The position numbers and the translations under genes are program-made. A DNA stretch of 64,000 nucleotides from Actinomycetota bacterium. Lineage in GTDB: Bacteria > Actinomycetota > Acidimicrobiia > Acidimicrobiales > Ilumatobacteraceae. The first letter of the stretch is position 1, and each line of letters begins with the position of its first letter. The DNA is taken from the NCBI GenBank assembly GCA_026393475.1, contig JAPLAA010000009.1:92659-156658 (forward strand). Reading direction: 5' to 3'. The notes beneath the pieces were generated by a model. The model did no database searches. It was given only the letters and a program-made list of their open reading frames with translations, and was not told the origin of the DNA. Shown here in pieces: positions 7,675 to 16,920 of the stretch.

Positions 7675-8263
7675 GGTGTCCACCGCCAGCTCGGGTCGCG
7701 CGCCGATCGTGCTCGCCTCGGGCTCGCCTCGGCGGCGCGAGCTGCTCGAACAGCTGGGCCTCGCGTTCGCCATCCGCGCGGCCGACATCGACGAGTCGGT
7801 GCGCGACGGTGAACCGCCGCTCGACTACGTGCAGCGGTTGAGCATCGAGAAGGCCGCCGCGGTCCCGGTGCCGGCCGGCACGCTCGTGATCGCGGCCGAC
7901 ACCACCGTCGACGTCGACGGGGTGATCTTCGGTAAGCCCGCCGACGAGACCGAGGCGCGCTCGATGCTCGCCGCGATCTCGGGGCGTCGGCACCATGTGC
8001 ACACCGGGGTGACGGTCCGACTCGACGACCGATCGGCCACGACGGTCGTGTCGACGGCGGTCGAGATCGCCCCGATCGACGAGGCGACCGCGGCGTGGTA
8101 CATCGCCACCGGCGAGCCGTTCGACAAGGCGGGCGGCTACGCCCTCCAGGGCGCCGGTGGCGTGTTCGTCGCCGGCGTCGAGGGCAGCGTCAGCAACGTG
8201 ATCGGCCTGCCGCTCGCCGAGCTGGTCGAACTGGCGCGACGCGTGGGCGCCGAACTGCTCTGA
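7667..8263 (+). CDS. maf: Maf-family nucleotide pyrophosphatase
   Basis: IVLASGSPRRRELLEQLGL...ADTTVDVDG...FDKAGGYALQGAGGVFV. Confidence 0.93.
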   Translation: MAEVSTASSGRAPIVLASGSPRRRELLEQLGLAFAIRAADIDESVRDGEPPLDYVQRLSIEKAAAVPVPAGTLVIAADTTVDVDGVIFGKPADETEARSMLAAISGRRHHVHTGVTVRLDDRSATTVVSTAVEIAPIDEATAAWYIATGEPFDKAGGYALQGAGGVFVAGVEGSVSNVIGLPLAELVELARRVGAELL

Positions 8264-8285
8264 GTCCGGCTCGTCGCCGGCGAGC

Positions 8286-10010
8286 TCACGGGGCGGCGAA
8301 CAGGTCGAGCGTGGCCACGACGCTCCCGTCGGCGGCCACCACCTCTGCGACGTAGGCGCCGAGGGACACCTGGTCGGGGTCGACGGCGACGACGCCCACG
8401 TGCACACCACTCCACGACGTCCAGAACGACGGGTCGAGGCGGCCCGGTTCGGTCGGCGGGTCGTCGTTCACCGGCAACGGTGTGAGCGGCGTCGAGCGTT
8501 CGGTCCCGTCGGCCATCCGCACGCGCAACGTGGCGCCGTCCTGGTCGATCGCGGCGAGGACCAGCGTCGAGCCGTCGACGACCATCGTGCCGATCGCCCC
8601 GCTCCTGGCCACGCCGACGAGGGCGTCGAACGATGTGTCCACGCCGCCGAACGTCGGGACCTCCAGTGCGATCCGCCCGGTGCGAGGGCCGATGAGGAGC
8701 GCCCACTCGGTGCCGGTGGCGGTGGTGCCGTCGGCGACCGAGACCGGGATCTCCTCGTCCGCCGGGAGCGCCCATGCGCCAGGGTCGGCCCGTGTGGCCT
8801 CGTCGCGGGCGCTCGCCCATTCGTCGCGTGTCACCCGGTGCGCGTCGTCGAGCATCGCGGGGAGCACGCCCGACGACAGCGTGGTGAGCAGCCACACGTC
8901 GTCGTCGCCGACGGACCACCGCACCACGTTGACGTCGATGCCGTCGATCGATCTGGTGCCGGTCTCGAACCGATCGGGCGTGAACCCGTCGAAGGCCGTG
9001 GTGGGATCGAGCCCCAGCGTTCGGGTGAACGTGAGGCCGGCGAGCGCAGGTTCGATCGCATCGATCGGCCGGCGCTGGAGCAGTGAGACATCGCGTCGCC
9101 CCGGTCCGGCGTAGTACACGGTGCTCGTCGACGACGCGCCGAAGAGCGCCGTGTCGACCAGGTCGTCGGGGGACGGGCGCGCCGCCACCATCGTCAGCCC
9201 GTCGTACAACCGGGCGACGGCGGCGTCGTCCGGGTCTGCGAACGGGAGGCGCGCGCCGGTCATCACGATCGAGGCGGCGAGCTCGATCGTCTCCGGCAAC
9301 GAGAAGCCGTACGACTGGATCGCCGTCAGTGCACCGTCGACACCGCCACCGGGGGCCATGCGCAGCTCGAGCACGCCGTCGTGATCCCGGCGCGTCATCG
9401 CCTGCCGACCGTCGGCGTCGACCGCTGCCCACCCGAGCGCGACCGGCTCGAGTTCGCCGCCGGGACGCAATGTCAACGAGAACCACCGGCCCGAGGTGCG
9501 CGTGGCTCCGTCGGTCGCCCACACCTGCGCCCAGCCGTTCCGGCCCGCGGCGGTGTTCTGATCGTCACCTTCGGGGTCCTGGGCGAAGGCCACCGCGGTG
9601 AGGCCGGCCACGGGTGGATCGAAGACCCAGCCCTCGACACCGGATTCGGCGACGAGCGTGCCCGCCGTGACCGGGTCGATCGCACCGATCGACGTCGGAG
9701 GAAGGACCGCAACGGTGGTGGTGGGCGCCGCGCCCGTGTCGCCCGTCGACCAGGGCGATGCGGCGATCACGCCGCCGACGAGCAGGCCCACCACGGCGAG
9801 CCCGGCGAGGGTCGGTGCCCATCGGGAGCGCGGAGCACGGTCGTCGTCTGCGTCGTCCCAGTCGACGGGATCGAAGCCGACGAAGGTGCCGGCGGCGCCG
9901 CCGTCGAGGTCGCCGAACGCGTTGGAGTCTGGTGCGAGGAACTCGATGTCGGTCGACCCGACCGCGGCGCGGCGGCCGGACGGATCGGACGACTCGCGTG
10001 TCGATGGCAC
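8286..10010 (-). CDS. Paralog A of a four-member family: single-pass membrane protein with large extracytoplasmic domain (type 1)
   Basis: IEFLAPDSNAFG...FVGFDPVDWDDADDD..PRSRW then TM helix TLAGLAVVGLLVGGVIAASPW, Thr-rich linker, ATRTSGRW, YGFSLPETIELAAS. GTG start with upstream element shared with paralog D. Confidence 0.85.
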   Translation of the reverse strand: MPSTRESSDPSGRRAAVGSTDIEFLAPDSNAFGDLDGGAAGTFVGFDPVDWDDADDDRAPRSRWAPTLAGLAVVGLLVGGVIAASPWSTGDTGAAPTTTVAVLPPTSIGAIDPVTAGTLVAESGVEGWVFDPPVAGLTAVAFAQDPEGDDQNTAAGRNGWAQVWATDGATRTSGRWFSLTLRPGGELEPVALGWAAVDADGRQAMTRRDHDGVLELRMAPGGGVDGALTAIQSYGFSLPETIELAASIVMTGARLPFADPDDAAVARLYDGLTMVAARPSPDDLVDTALFGASSTSTVYYAGPGRRDVSLLQRRPIDAIEPALAGLTFTRTLGLDPTTAFDGFTPDRFETGTRSIDGIDVNVVRWSVGDDDVWLLTTLSSGVLPAMLDDAHRVTRDEWASARDEATRADPGAWALPADEEIPVSVADGTTATGTEWALLIGPRTGRIALEVPTFGGVDTSFDALVGVARSGAIGTMVVDGSTLVLAAIDQDGATLRVRMADGTERSTPLTPLPVNDDPPTEPGRLDPSFWTSWSGVHVGVVAVDPDQVSLGAYVAEVVAADGSVVATLDLFAAP

Positions 10011-10016
10011 CCGGGC

Positions 10017-10053
10017 ATTGTCCCACCCCCGTCGGCGAGTGGGAACCCGGACG
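10017..10053 (-). promoter_or_regulatory. Promoter-like element of paralog A (CGTCCGGGTTCCCA ... GTTCCC-N19-ACAAT-N6-GTG)
   Basis: Same 14-mer and identical spacing (19 and 6 nt) as upstream of paralog D. Confidence 0.55.
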
Positions 10054-10077
10054 GACAGTCCGTGCAGTCGGCGGCTG

Positions 10078-11577
10078 TCAGTCGGCGGCGATCGGCCGGC
10101 CGGCGTCGTCGTGCCAGGTCACCTCGACCGGCTCGTCCGGCGCGATCTGCACGACCGCGGCCGAGCGGTCGCTGTCGTCGATCGGCGTCAGCCCGGTCTT
10201 CTGACTCCCCGACGGCTGGGTGACCAGCACCGACTGCGCCGTGCCGCCGGCATCGGTGACGAGGACGAAGGCGTCGTCGAAGCTGTGGAACGTGGTGACC
10301 GTCCGTCCCTCCCCCGGAGGCCACGCACGGTTGGTGAAGGAGCTGCCCGCCTCGATGTAGTACCAGACGTCGGTCGCGCCGGCGCTCCACGATCCGTCGA
10401 TCGCGCCGCCGAGGGTGGTCGGGTCCAGCCACGCGGGTGCGAACTCGCCGGCGATGGCATCGGCCCAGTCGCCGGTCGAGGCCTGGCCGAGGTCGGCCGT
10501 GAACCTGACGAGTTCGGCCGTGCCGAGCGCCCCTTCGGCGACCACCTCCAGACCGGTGCCGTCGAACCATCGCGCACCGACGATGCCGGCATCGTGCGCG
10601 CTGGTGAACAGGTCGACGGTGCGGCCCTGCGACGACATCTCGGCGAGCAGTGCACGCGTCGGCCGGTCGAGCGTGTCGACCTCGATCGGCACCCGGAGGA
10701 GGTATTCGTCGACCAGGATCGTGTCGATCGTGAGGCCGGATCGGGCGACGATGATCGACTCGCTCGTCGCAGGGTCGATGAACATCGCCCACGTGTCGGG
10801 TGGATGCGACCGGATCGAGCCCGGCGCCCAGTCGACCTGCCCGTCGAGCACGAACGACACGCCGTCGACCGGCGCACCGTCCGGCTGCGTCCACTCGTCG
10901 GGCACTGCGATGCCGCCGACCGTGCGCTCGACGGAGGCGGCGACGGCGACCAGTTCGTCGAGGCCGAGCCCGAACGCGATCACCGCGTAGTCGTCGCCCG
11001 CCGGAGGGTGCACGCGCAGTTCGGCCACCCCGTCGTCGGACTCGGCGAGCAACCCCGGCCTCCCGCCGACGTCGATCACGGTGGCGTTGCGCACCAGGTC
11101 GCGGTACGCGCTCGCGCCGCGCTGGTCGACCACCACCCACCGGCCGCTGGTGCGCGTGGCGTTGACCGACGTCCACATGAACAGCGCTTCCCCGCCCGGA
11201 ACGACCTCACCGTTGGAGACGGCGCGGACGAGCTCGAAGCGCGAGGGCGAACGGGGGAGCCACCCGGGCGTGCCGGTCGCCAGATCGGGGATCGTGCGGT
11301 CGTCGACGGTCGTGGGTGCGTCGGCCGTAGGGTCGAGCTCCCGATCGACCGTGGTCGCCGGCGGCACGGCTGCGGTCTCGTCGGACTCCCATGGCGCAGC
11401 GGCGAGCACGCCGCCGGCGAGCAGACCGGTGACGCCCACCACGGCGAGGACGGTGAGCCACCTCGAGCGGGGCGGCTCGTCGTCGAAGGCCGTGTCGTCG
11501 GTGTCGTCGAGTCCGACGAAATCGGCCGCATCGGCCTCGCCGAACGCGTGGTCGCGCGGTGGCAGGAACTCGATCAC
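10078..11577 (-). CDS. Paralog B: single-pass membrane protein (type 2)
   Basis: GTG start; VIEFLPPRDHAFGEADAADFVGLDDTDD...DDEPPRSRWLTVLAVVGVTGLLAGGVLAAAPW; NATRTSGRW; IDVGGRPGLL; FGLGLDELVAVAAS. Starts inside the stop of paralog C (GTGA). Confidence 0.85.
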   Translation of the reverse strand: MIEFLPPRDHAFGEADAADFVGLDDTDDTAFDDEPPRSRWLTVLAVVGVTGLLAGGVLAAAPWESDETAAVPPATTVDRELDPTADAPTTVDDRTIPDLATGTPGWLPRSPSRFELVRAVSNGEVVPGGEALFMWTSVNATRTSGRWVVVDQRGASAYRDLVRNATVIDVGGRPGLLAESDDGVAELRVHPPAGDDYAVIAFGLGLDELVAVAASVERTVGGIAVPDEWTQPDGAPVDGVSFVLDGQVDWAPGSIRSHPPDTWAMFIDPATSESIIVARSGLTIDTILVDEYLLRVPIEVDTLDRPTRALLAEMSSQGRTVDLFTSAHDAGIVGARWFDGTGLEVVAEGALGTAELVRFTADLGQASTGDWADAIAGEFAPAWLDPTTLGGAIDGSWSAGATDVWYYIEAGSSFTNRAWPPGEGRTVTTFHSFDDAFVLVTDAGGTAQSVLVTQPSGSQKTGLTPIDDSDRSAAVVQIAPDEPVEVTWHDDAGRPIAAD

Positions 11578-13118
11578 GGCACCGACGTCGGCCCATCGAC
11601 GGGCACGCCGTCGAGGTCGAACCACGAGATCGTCACCGGCAGGTCGCCGTCGATCTCCGCCGCCACCGCGTACACCGGGGTGTCGCCGACCTGGCGCAGG
11701 TCGACCTCCTGCGGCTCGAGTCCTGGCTGCGCGACGACCACCCGCAAGCCGTCGTTCGGCCACGTGTTCGTGACGAGGAGGAACGCCTGCTCCAGCGAGC
11801 GGTACGCCGTGACCGTCGGCCCGCTCACGGGCTCGAACGGGCTGCTGAAGTAGTACTCGTTCGCGCTGATCGAGAACCAGGTCCGGTCGATCTGCGCGTT
11901 CCAGCGATCCATCCCGAGGCCGCCGGTTCCGATGCCCGTGGGCGGCTCGGACTCGAACTCCACCCCCGGGCCGTTCATCGTCTCGAGCGAGGCCTCTCGC
12001 CACGCGTCCGGCTCGGCCAGCTCCAGGAGCGCGCTGAGTTCGAGCGCGTCGGTGAGGTCGGTCGGGCTCGACACCGTCACCAGCTGGCCGTCGGGGAGCT
12101 CGAACCGCACGACGCTGTACGCCGTCTCACGCGAATCGGTCGCGACGACGATCGTGCTGGGGTCGGCGACACCGTCGGTGAGTGCCGCGAGGCCGGCCAG
12201 CTCGTCGGGGTCGAGCGCGGCGACATCGACCGGCACCGACGCCACGAGGTCGGCGAGGAGTCGTTCGGTCGGCGTCGGCCGGTCGACGGTGACCTGGATC
12301 CACAGACCCGTGGCCGGGTCGGCGAAGTAGCTCCAGGCATCGGGCATCCCCACCACACCACCCCACGGGTACCAATCGATGTTCTCGGCGGCGCGCAGTT
12401 CGAGTCCGTCGAACGGCCCGCCCGGGTCGAGCAGATCGCCGTGGTCGATGCCGCGCGCATCGATGGTGACGGAGCCGGCGATGCGGGCGATCTCGGTGAG
12501 CTCGAGGCCGAACGTGGTGATCGCGAACGCCACGCCATCGGTCGGCGGGAGCGTCACCTCGACGACGCCGTCGCTCGCGATGCTCATCAGCGCCTGGCGC
12601 CCGCCCACGTCGATGCGGACGGCACCCTCGCGAAGGGTTTGGAAGTCGCCCATCTGCTCGCGCGAGTCGATCACGACCCAATGGCCGCTCGCGCGGGCAG
12701 CGTCGGGCGACATCCATACCTCCAACGGGTCGCCGACGGAGAAGTACCCCTGGTCGGACTGCGCGCCCGCGAGCTGGAACGGCGAGGGCCCGACGAGCAG
12801 CATCCCCGGAGGATTCGTGTCGTAGCCGGGCGGCAGGGTCGGCTCGGGCGCGTCGGTGGTTGTCGGTCGAGGTGTGGTGGTCGTCGGTGCCGGCACCGTC
12901 GTCGGTGGCGTCGCCACCTCCTCGCCGTCCCACGGTGCGGCGGCGATCACGCCGCCGGCGAGCAGGCCGGTCACGCCGACCACCGCCAGGATGGTGAGCC
13001 AGCGTGAGCGCGGCGGCTCGTCGTCGAAGCCTCGGTCGTCGTCACCGTCGAAGCCGACGAAGTCGACCTCCTCGCCCGAGCCGAAGGCACCCTCACGCGG
13101 TGGCAGGAACTCGATCAC
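11574..13118 (-). CDS. Paralog C: single-pass membrane protein (type 2)
   Basis: VIEFLPPREGAFGSGEEVDFVGFDGDDD...DDEPPRSRWLTILAVVGVTGLLAGGVIAAAPW; DAARASGHW; IDVGGRQALM; FGLELTEIARIAGS. GTGA overlap with paralog D stop. Confidence 0.85.
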   Translation of the reverse strand: MIEFLPPREGAFGSGEEVDFVGFDGDDDRGFDDEPPRSRWLTILAVVGVTGLLAGGVIAAAPWDGEEVATPPTTVPAPTTTTPRPTTTDAPEPTLPPGYDTNPPGMLLVGPSPFQLAGAQSDQGYFSVGDPLEVWMSPDAARASGHWVVIDSREQMGDFQTLREGAVRIDVGGRQALMSIASDGVVEVTLPPTDGVAFAITTFGLELTEIARIAGSVTIDARGIDHGDLLDPGGPFDGLELRAAENIDWYPWGGVVGMPDAWSYFADPATGLWIQVTVDRPTPTERLLADLVASVPVDVAALDPDELAGLAALTDGVADPSTIVVATDSRETAYSVVRFELPDGQLVTVSSPTDLTDALELSALLELAEPDAWREASLETMNGPGVEFESEPPTGIGTGGLGMDRWNAQIDRTWFSISANEYYFSSPFEPVSGPTVTAYRSLEQAFLLVTNTWPNDGLRVVVAQPGLEPQEVDLRQVGDTPVYAVAAEIDGDLPVTISWFDLDGVPVDGPTSVP

Positions 13119-14785
13119 CGGCCCACCTCCTGGTCGGCCATGCCCGCATCGGGTTCCCACGGAGCGAACCGGTGCAGCACGGTGCCGTCGACCGCCACGA
13201 CCTGCGCCTCGAAGCTGCCCGGACGCGTGCCGTCGACGATGCTCGTGCCGTCGACCGCGAGCGCGCCGAACCACACCTGTTCCACATCGTCTGTCGACGC
13301 ACCAGCCACCAGATCCGTTGCACCGAGTCCGAACATCTGCCCGTCGGCATCGCCGACCCGGATCAGCAGCGAACCCGGTTCGGTCGACCGGGCGATCAGC
13401 AACGTGGCCGAGCCCACCGTCACCGGGGTGATCGTCATCGTCGGGCGGCCGAGCGTGCCCTCGTAGGTCTCGTCGCCGACGCGCACCGACAACTCGTCGT
13501 TCGACGCCCAGTGCAGCACCGACCAGACCGTCGCCGGGCCATCGGCGAGGGTGCCGCTGCCGATGGTGATGCCGGGCGGCGTGCGCGGTTCGGTGGTCTG
13601 CGGGAACGCGACGTTGCGCGCCCTTCGCTCGGCCGCAGCCCAGTCCTCCGCCGAAGCGAACTGCACATCGGGGATCGTCGCGAGCAGGTCGATCAGGTCG
13701 CCGGTGGTGAGCAGCGAGACGGCCGTGTCGTCCTCCTGCCAGCGTGCGACGACGATGTCGAAACCGTCGATCGTGCGCCGGCCGACCGTCAGCCCCTCGC
13801 CGTCGAAGTCCTCCTGGGGGCCCCAGCCGTCCGCGAGCGGGATGGCCGTGGTGGCGAGGGCGAGCAGCCGCGGGTCGTCGAGCTCGGCGGGTTGCTCCTG
13901 CACGATCGTGACGTCGAAGCGGTCGGGGCCCGCGTAGAAGGCGCTGGTGCGCGGCGGGCCACCGAGCACGGCGCGGGTGGTGAGCTCGACGTCGGTTCGG
14001 GCGGCCGCGACCTGCTCGAGGCCGTCGAGCAGGTCGGCGTCGAACGACGGCCGGTCGTCCACGAGCTGGGGCCGGTCGTCGACGATGCTCATCGAGTCGG
14101 CCAACTCGATCATGCGGGTGAGGCCGAGGCCGAACGCGTCGATGGTGACGAGGCGCGAGGCGTCGGTCTGGCCGGCGTCGAACGACAGCGAGACCACACC
14201 GTCGGGGTCGACCGACGCGTGGCCGTTCCGGCCGCCGACGTCGACCCGGAACCACTCGGGCGTCGACGGATCCCACGAGGCGAACGGTTCGAGGAGCACC
14301 GAGAACCACCGTCCGCTGGTGCGCGTCGCATCGGCCTCGGCCCACACCTCGCCCCAGCCGATCGAGTCGTCGACCCGGTCGTCACCCCGGGCGAAGAAGG
14401 CGGCGGTCAACCCGGTCGGCACGGGATCGAGGAGCCAGCCGGTGCGAGACGGATCGACCGGCTGCGCCGTCGCGGTCGTCAGCGGCGCCGGGGCGACGAG
14501 CGTGGTCGGCGTGGTCGGCGTGGTGGTGGTGGTCGACGGTGGCGTCGCATCGGTGTCGCCCGACCACGGGGCCGCGGCGACCACCCCACCGGCGAGCAGT
14601 CCCACCACCGCGATCCCGGCCAGCACCGGCAGCCATCGGGACGCCGGCTCGTCGTCGTCGGTGTCGTCCCAGGCGTCGCCGTCGAAGCCGACGAAGACCT
14701 CGCCGGGGCCGTCGACCCCGTCGGCCGGGCCGAAGGCGCGCTCGTCCGGCGGGAGGAACTCGATCAGACCCGGTTCCGGCGGCAC
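13115..14785 (-). CDS. Paralog D: single-pass membrane protein (type 1), first gene of the cluster
   Basis: LIEFLPPDERAFG...EVFVGFDGDAWDDTDDDEPASRWLPVLAGIAVVGLLAGGVVAAAPW; DATRTSGRW; VDVGGRNGHA; FGLGLTRMIELADS. GTG 14785 chosen by alignment with paralog A; ORF track start is ATG 14815. Confidence 0.83.
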   Translation of the reverse strand: MPPEPGLIEFLPPDERAFGPADGVDGPGEVFVGFDGDAWDDTDDDEPASRWLPVLAGIAVVGLLAGGVVAAAPWSGDTDATPPSTTTTTPTTPTTLVAPAPLTTATAQPVDPSRTGWLLDPVPTGLTAAFFARGDDRVDDSIGWGEVWAEADATRTSGRWFSVLLEPFASWDPSTPEWFRVDVGGRNGHASVDPDGVVSLSFDAGQTDASRLVTIDAFGLGLTRMIELADSMSIVDDRPQLVDDRPSFDADLLDGLEQVAAARTDVELTTRAVLGGPPRTSAFYAGPDRFDVTIVQEQPAELDDPRLLALATTAIPLADGWGPQEDFDGEGLTVGRRTIDGFDIVVARWQEDDTAVSLLTTGDLIDLLATIPDVQFASAEDWAAAERRARNVAFPQTTEPRTPPGITIGSGTLADGPATVWSVLHWASNDELSVRVGDETYEGTLGRPTMTITPVTVGSATLLIARSTEPGSLLIRVGDADGQMFGLGATDLVAGASTDDVEQVWFGALAVDGTSIVDGTRPGSFEAQVVAVDGTVLHRFAPWEPDAGMADQEVGR

Positions 14786-14791
14786 CCGGCC

Positions 14792-14828
14792 ATTGTTCCA
14801 CCCGGACCCCGTCATGGGAACCCGGACG
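14792..14828 (-). promoter_or_regulatory. Promoter-like element of paralog D (CGTCCGGGTTCCCA ... GTTCCC-N19-ACAAT-N6-GTG)
   Basis: Duplicate of the paralog A element; 12 bp from CIRCE 1. Confidence 0.55.
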
Positions 14829-14833
14829 AGGCG

Positions 14834-14860
14834 TTAGCACTCTCACCTCCCGGTTGCTAA
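14834..14860. promoter_or_regulatory. CIRCE operator 1 (imperfect HrcA site)
   Basis: TTAGCACTC-N9-GGTTGCTAA versus consensus TTAGCACTC-N9-GAGTGCTAA. Confidence 0.85.
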
Positions 14861-14882
14861 CGGGTGGGTCGAGCGCGTAACC

Positions 14883-14909
14883 TTGGCACTCGCGACGGTC
14901 GAGTGCTAA
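14883..14909. promoter_or_regulatory. CIRCE operator 2 (HrcA site)
   Basis: TTGGCACTC-N9-GAGTGCTAA; one mismatch to consensus; upstream of groES. Confidence 0.93.
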
Positions 14910-14974
14910 CGGCCGTCCACCGTTCAGAACAAACCCCGTACCACCACGTGTACAAGCCAATGGAGGCCTGCACC

Positions 14975-15268
14975 ATGTCACTCAAGCCGCTTGACGATCG
15001 CATCGTCGTGAAGCCCAACGAGGCCGAGCAGACCACTGCGTCCGGTCTGGTGATCCCCGATACCGCCAAGGAGAAGCCCCAGCAGGGTTCCGTCATCGCC
15101 GTCGGCCCCGGCCGCTGGAGCGACGACAAGGGCGCGCACACCCCGCTGACCGTGCAGGTCGGCGACACCGTGCTGTACTCGAAGTACGGCGGCACCGAGG
15201 TCACGATCGACGGCCAGGATCTCCTGATCCTCACCAGCCGTGACGTGCTCGCGATCGTCGAGAAGTGA
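14975..15268 (+). CDS. groS: Co-chaperonin GroES
   Basis: [46 protein letters not shown]. Confidence 0.98.
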
Positions 15269-15273
15269 GCTGA

Positions 15274-16920
<1,647 letters not shown>

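Follow-up and report, generated by a model that had tools for sequence, protein, structure and literature searches.

Leaderless mRNAs transcribed from a −10 element located near the start codon are common among the actinobacteria (PMC3898074, PMC3160421). In M. tuberculosis, 26% of the genes with a primary transcription start site (TSS) are leaderless, and most of these have a TANNNT −10 element with no −35 consensus; a TGN stands before 7% of TANNNT promoters, where it raises activity (PMC3898074). TA-type signals located ~10-12 nt before start codons likewise mark leaderless genes across actinobacteria (PMC3160421).

In this report we describe two candidate promoters of a related type in an uncultured member of the Ilumatobacteraceae. 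They are located in a stretch of 64,000 nucleotides, hereafter the window, that contains the following paralogous genes.

8286..10010, minus strand: paralog A, type 1, 574 aa; predicted leaderless GTG start at 10010-10008
10078..11577, minus strand: paralog B, type 2, 499 aa; GTG 11577 overlaps the stop of C (GTGA)
11574..13118, minus strand: paralog C, type 2, 514 aa; GTG 13118 overlaps the stop of D (GTGA); lacks a promoter of the A/D kind
13115..14785, minus strand: paralog D, type 1, 556 aa; predicted leaderless GTG start at 14785-14783; the GTG is conserved

The proteins encoded between 8286 and 14785 have an acidic N-terminus with the sequence IEFLPP, one predicted membrane helix, a Thr-rich linker and a large C-terminal domain, and none of them matches a Pfam family. 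Members of this family are present in 5/5 genomes of the genus and weakly in 5 other genomes of the family. L010 in genome G055, which is distantly homologous to the membrane and C-terminal part, has an N-terminal sigma-70 region 4-like domain (PF08281, E 1e-8), which hints at a link between the A-D family and ECF-sigma-like proteins; L007 resembles L010 by eye and has no Pfam match. An AlphaFold model of D had a mean pLDDT of 50, which is too poor for use, and an Rfam search of positions 8000-15600 returned nothing at E <= 1.

Candidate promoter elements upstream of paralogs A and D

On the minus strand, GTTCCC-N19-ACAAT-N6-GTG precedes both A (GTG 10010) and D (GTG 14785), with CGTCCGGGTTCCCACTCGCCGACGGGGGTGGGACAATGCCCGG directly before the GTG of A and CGTCCGGGTTCCCATGACGGGGTCCGGGTGGAACAATGGCCGG directly before that of D. 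The GTTCCC is part of a 14-mer, CGTCCGGGTTCCCA, present at 10040-10053 and 14815-14828 and nowhere else in the window; allowing up to 2 mismatches returned the same two window sites only, with ~1.3 loose matches expected by chance. The 14-mer, the box coordinates and the N19 and N6 spacings had been reported for A and D in a first-pass annotation of this DNA and are all exact, as is its statement that B and C lack the element and instead use GTGA coupling. The GTGA overlaps are at GTG 11577 (B) and GTG 13118 (C), and the arrangement is also found in the related genomes G037 and G018. Parsed as GTTCCC-N19-ACAAT, the element is cut one base away from its natural hexamers. Shifted by one base, the element reads TTCCCA-N17-RACAAT with TGG immediately 5' of RACAAT. 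If the G of GTG is taken as +1, TTCCCA occupies −35 to −30, TGn −15 to −13 and RACAAT −12 to −7 with a spacer of 17 bp. Given this predicted +1, these positions are the textbook sigma-70 coordinates with an extended −10. The predicted promoters, P_A and P_D, have the following elements.

10040..10045, minus strand: −35 TTCCCA of P_A, within the 14-mer 10040-10053; unchanged in the A ortholog of G037; TTCCCC at equal spacing in G018
10017..10025, minus strand: extended −10 of P_A, TGG 10023-10025 plus GACAAT 10017-10022, at −15 to −7
14815..14820, minus strand: −35 TTCCCA of P_D, within the 14-mer 14815-14828; unchanged in G037
14792..14800, minus strand: extended −10 of P_D, TGG 14798-14800 plus AACAAT 14792-14797, at −15 to −7

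TTCCCA matches TTGACA at only four of six positions. A −35 with an initial TT at a spacing of 17 ± 1 bp is nevertheless present throughout: the two paralogs and their G037 orthologs all have TTCCCA-N17-RACAAT, and G018 has TTCCCC. The −10 hexamers depart from the strict TANNNT consensus, as GACAAT and AACAAT have A2 and T6 without T1, the −12 base being G in A and A in D. A TGn adjoins the hexamer in each case, as TGG in both paralogs and as TGC in G018. The hexamer ends exactly 6 nt before the GTG in both A and D, within the genome-wide peak at 6-8 nt described below, and no Shine-Dalgarno site is apparent before either GTG.

P_A and P_D are like the leaderless TANNNT promoters of M. tuberculosis and other actinobacteria (PMC3898074, PMC3160421) in having a −10 a few nucleotides before an RTG start codon, at which the TSS is expected, a weak or absent general −35 and no Shine-Dalgarno site. 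They differ in that the hexamer begins with G or A and not with T, that it is preceded by a TGn, and that the −35 TTCCCA is conserved across paralogs and species. They are also like extended −10 (TGn) sigma-70 promoters in the location of the TG at −15/−14, the hexamer at −12 to −7 and the 17-bp spacer.

The sequences upstream of A and D are identical at 14/14 positions from −43 to −30, comprising 8/8 upstream of the −35 and 6/6 in the −35, as well as at 8/9 positions of the TGn plus hexamer and 5/6 from −6 to −1, versus 4/14 in the spacer. Placed in register by their start codons, the two upstream sequences agree at 33 of 50 bases, a value exceeded by one of 208,335 same-genome gene pairs, and a 14-base identical run occurs in 0 of 100,000 sampled pairs. 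The upstream similarity of A and D is therefore far above chance.

Conservation of the candidate promoters in related genomes

Both the A and D orthologs of G037 carry GTTCCC-N19-ACAAT-N6-GTG, and the start of A is conserved. D and its G037 ortholog differ at 9 of 200 upstream bases with 7 of these located between −40 and −1, none of which falls in the 15 box positions (p ~0.026). Additionally, G037 has ACG in place of the ATG at 14813-14815 while the GTG is kept and the bases between vary freely. This supports GTG 14785, as opposed to ATG 14815, as the predicted start of D, in agreement with the first-pass annotation; the A of the rejected ATG is the last base of the D copy of the 14-mer.

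G018, which is more distant, has GTTCCCCCGTGGCGGCGCAGGTGCGACAAT-N7-GTG before its single type-1 gene, whose protein is 42-44% identical. This sequence reads as TTCCCC-N17-(TGC)GACAAT-N7-GTG, so that the hexamer is located 7 nt and not 6 nt from the GTG; an in-frame GTG is also present upstream. Within the G018 genome, TTCC-N16-TGNRACAAT matches once only, at this type-1 gene. Thus G037 (A and D) and G018 both keep the boxes with their 19-nt spacing and a GTG close by, while the spacers diverge. This recurrence supports the first-pass view that constant spacing around a diverged spacer reflects selection, here on a promoter, and by its conservation the element is functional. The gene in G066 is without its 5' end (contig end), and G053 has a short, diverged homologue that lacks the motif. 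In G018, in-frame tandem repeats (GAGTTCCTCCGC-like, encoding RNFLRNFLRN) are present directly 5' of the promoter (L078:4085-4200) and resemble its −35 sequence.

As paralogs with 39% identity, and with 73% identity in part of their coding DNA, A and D could owe their upstream likeness to a functionless leftover of gene duplication. However, the boxes are identical next to a near-random spacer, those of G037 D are free of substitutions while the spacer changes, and G018, although more distant, keeps the spacing, all of which makes this reading extremely improbable.

The identity of A and D does extend upstream of the −35 into CGTCCGGG, which is more than a sigma-70 promoter alone needs. If the promoter is otherwise ordinary, a transcription factor bound to CGTCCGGGTTCCCA, and so overlapping the −35, would explain identity that reaches 8 nt upstream of the −35. 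The loose inverted repeat that GTTCCCA and TGGRAC form across the spacer and the proximity of D to a CIRCE-like element common to D and groES also speak for this reading. In contrast, G018 retains only GTTCCC and not CGTCCGGG, its inverted repeat is poor, D of G037 has CGTCCGAG, and A has no CIRCE. We consider co-regulation of A and D by such a factor rather unlikely.

D and groES (ATG 14977) are divergently oriented across this CIRCE-like element (TTGGCACTCG...CGAGTGCTAA, 14883-14909). Between the two genes there is also another inverted repeat, CGTTAGCA...TGCTAACG at 14832-14862, located just upstream of the D −35. The D/groES arrangement is kept in G037 and G018, and D might be under shared heat-shock (HrcA) control.

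Promoter classes and motif occurrence across the genome and family

To place P_A and P_D in a genome-wide context we analyzed 659 genes called by codon usage in 741 kb of stretches from the same genome (L024-L077). Gene starts were uncurated, and counts at other distances served as the control for composition effects. Ahead of candidate ATG/GTG starts, TAnnnT is present at 39 sites at a distance of 6 nt, 48 at 7 nt and 41 at 8 nt, versus 3.9 per other distance, which sums to 128 sites where ~12 are expected. TGn[ACG]AnnnT, the form found at A and D, occurs 28 times at 6 nt before RTG versus 2.1 expected, and 47 times at 6-8 nt with ~6 expected, next to 129 TANNNT sites. In the same 741 kb, the control patterns in which [AC]Gn or TCn replaces TGn show no enrichment at 6 nt (10 vs 9.5 and 0 vs 2.4, respectively). 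There is also a mild enrichment of TT dinucleotides at the −35 position that a 17-18 bp spacer implies. Only 7% of TANNNT promoters carry a TGn in M. tuberculosis (PMC3898074), whereas here it occurs mainly with hexamers that lack the first T. Judged from these counts, leaderless-type promoters are common in this genome, and P_A and P_D are two members of a broad predicted class. The geometry of both promoters predicts leaderless mRNAs, as the first-pass annotation had suggested, and the abundance of such promoters in this genome is consistent with that prediction.

The peaks are reproduced in 400 kb from a second genus of the family (G012, L125-L144), where TAnnnT occurs 38 times at 7 nt versus 2.3 and the TGn class 17 times at 6 nt versus 1.5. 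The [AC]Gn control is also somewhat raised there at 6 nt (18 vs 5), which indicates that the TG requirement is less strict in this genus. TGn-[ACG]AnnnT-N6-RTG, in which the first T is absent, is thus a likely leaderless class that is common in the family.

The first-pass annotation had raised the possibility that the GTTCCC...ACAAT pair belongs to a dedicated sigma factor. In this reading, an alternative (ECF-type) sigma recognizes the pair and controls the type-1 genes. There are 37 Sigma70_r2 matches in the genome, so many ECF sigmas are available; additionally, the −35 box is conserved beyond the needs of an extended −10 promoter, and within the genus the strict motif is restricted to type-1 genes. 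However, GTTCCC-N19-ACAAT has exactly two sites in the 4.49 Mb genome, A and D, and a search for GTTCCC-N19-ACAAT-N6-GTG with 1 mismatch allowed returned no other site in this genome. One −35/−10 pair before several unrelated genes, as expected of a regulon, was therefore not found in the 4.49 Mb, and no regulon is visible beyond the two paralogs.

Usual ECF promoters have a GGAAC −35 and a CGTC or GTT −10. P_A and P_D are like ECF promoters in their conserved −35 block and constant spacing but differ in the absence of these boxes from the minus strand. Read as TTCCCA-N17-(TGn)RACAAT, they instead resemble dozens of others in the genome, with spacing and positions that suit a primary sigma and a −10 class that is widespread. 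A dedicated ECF-type sigma is thus not supported and appears quite improbable. We likewise think it unlikely, if not to the same degree, that either an alternative sigma or a regulator in contact with GTTCCC and its upstream flank co-regulates both transcription units of the cluster through a type-1-specific signal.

Family-wide matches to TTCC-N16-TGNRACAAT outside the genus mostly have no long open frame that starts 6-8 nt downstream in the stretches examined, which gives no support for a wider regulon. In one group, from genera g4, g14, g22 and g2, a frame of 66 codons does begin at 7 nt, within a conserved, coding-looking stretch. Two other readings of the A and D sequences were rejected. 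A SigF/SigB-like GNNT-N15-GGGT is present in both A and D but is lost in G037 D and G018, and an opposite-strand ECF reading (GGGAAC) has no conserved partner box.

Predicted transcription of the paralog cluster

From the sequence, spacing, genome-wide context and conservation of P_A and P_D we infer the sigma factor, the exact TSS and the operon structure. P_A and P_D are most probably leaderless, extended −10 promoters of the primary sigma that were copied along with the gene when it was duplicated and that selection has since maintained. The primary (housekeeping) sigma would read the −35 TTCCCA, the 17-bp spacer, the TGn and GACAAT or AACAAT, with the TGn compensating for the absent first T of the −10 hexamer. 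Region 3.0 of sigma, with its HxxE motif, reads the extended −10 in E. coli. The primary sigma gene of this genome (L115:650-1957) encodes regions 1.2, 2, 3 and 4, with PVHMVE (HxxE) in region 3.0 and RERIRQIE in region 4.2, the latter as in well-studied primary sigmas. RNA polymerase would initiate on the G of GTG or within 1-2 bases, giving an mRNA with neither a 5' leader nor a Shine-Dalgarno site that would be translated from its 5' end.

D, C and B are joined by GTGA overlaps, and a 67-nt gap separates B from A, which has its own copy of the promoter. P_D would drive D followed by C and B through GTGA-coupled translation, so that B is probably co-transcribed with D and C, and P_A, located in the gap, would drive A separately. 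G018 has a type-1 gene followed by two type-2 genes, again overlapping by GTGA, and a single promoter. The tie of the motif to type-1 genes would thus follow from their place at the head of transcription units. Duplication of a type-1 gene along with its promoter, followed by selection on the boxes and drift of the spacer, would account for the pattern observed at A and D.

P_A and P_D are further examples of a promoter type that is already known and is ordinary for actinobacteria. For this gene family without a Pfam match, the analysis provides a corrected start for D and predicted transcript 5' ends for two genes. More broadly, this lineage appears to have a sizeable set of likely leaderless genes with TGn-[ACG]AnnnT instead of TANNNT, which surveys that use TANNNT only would overlook.
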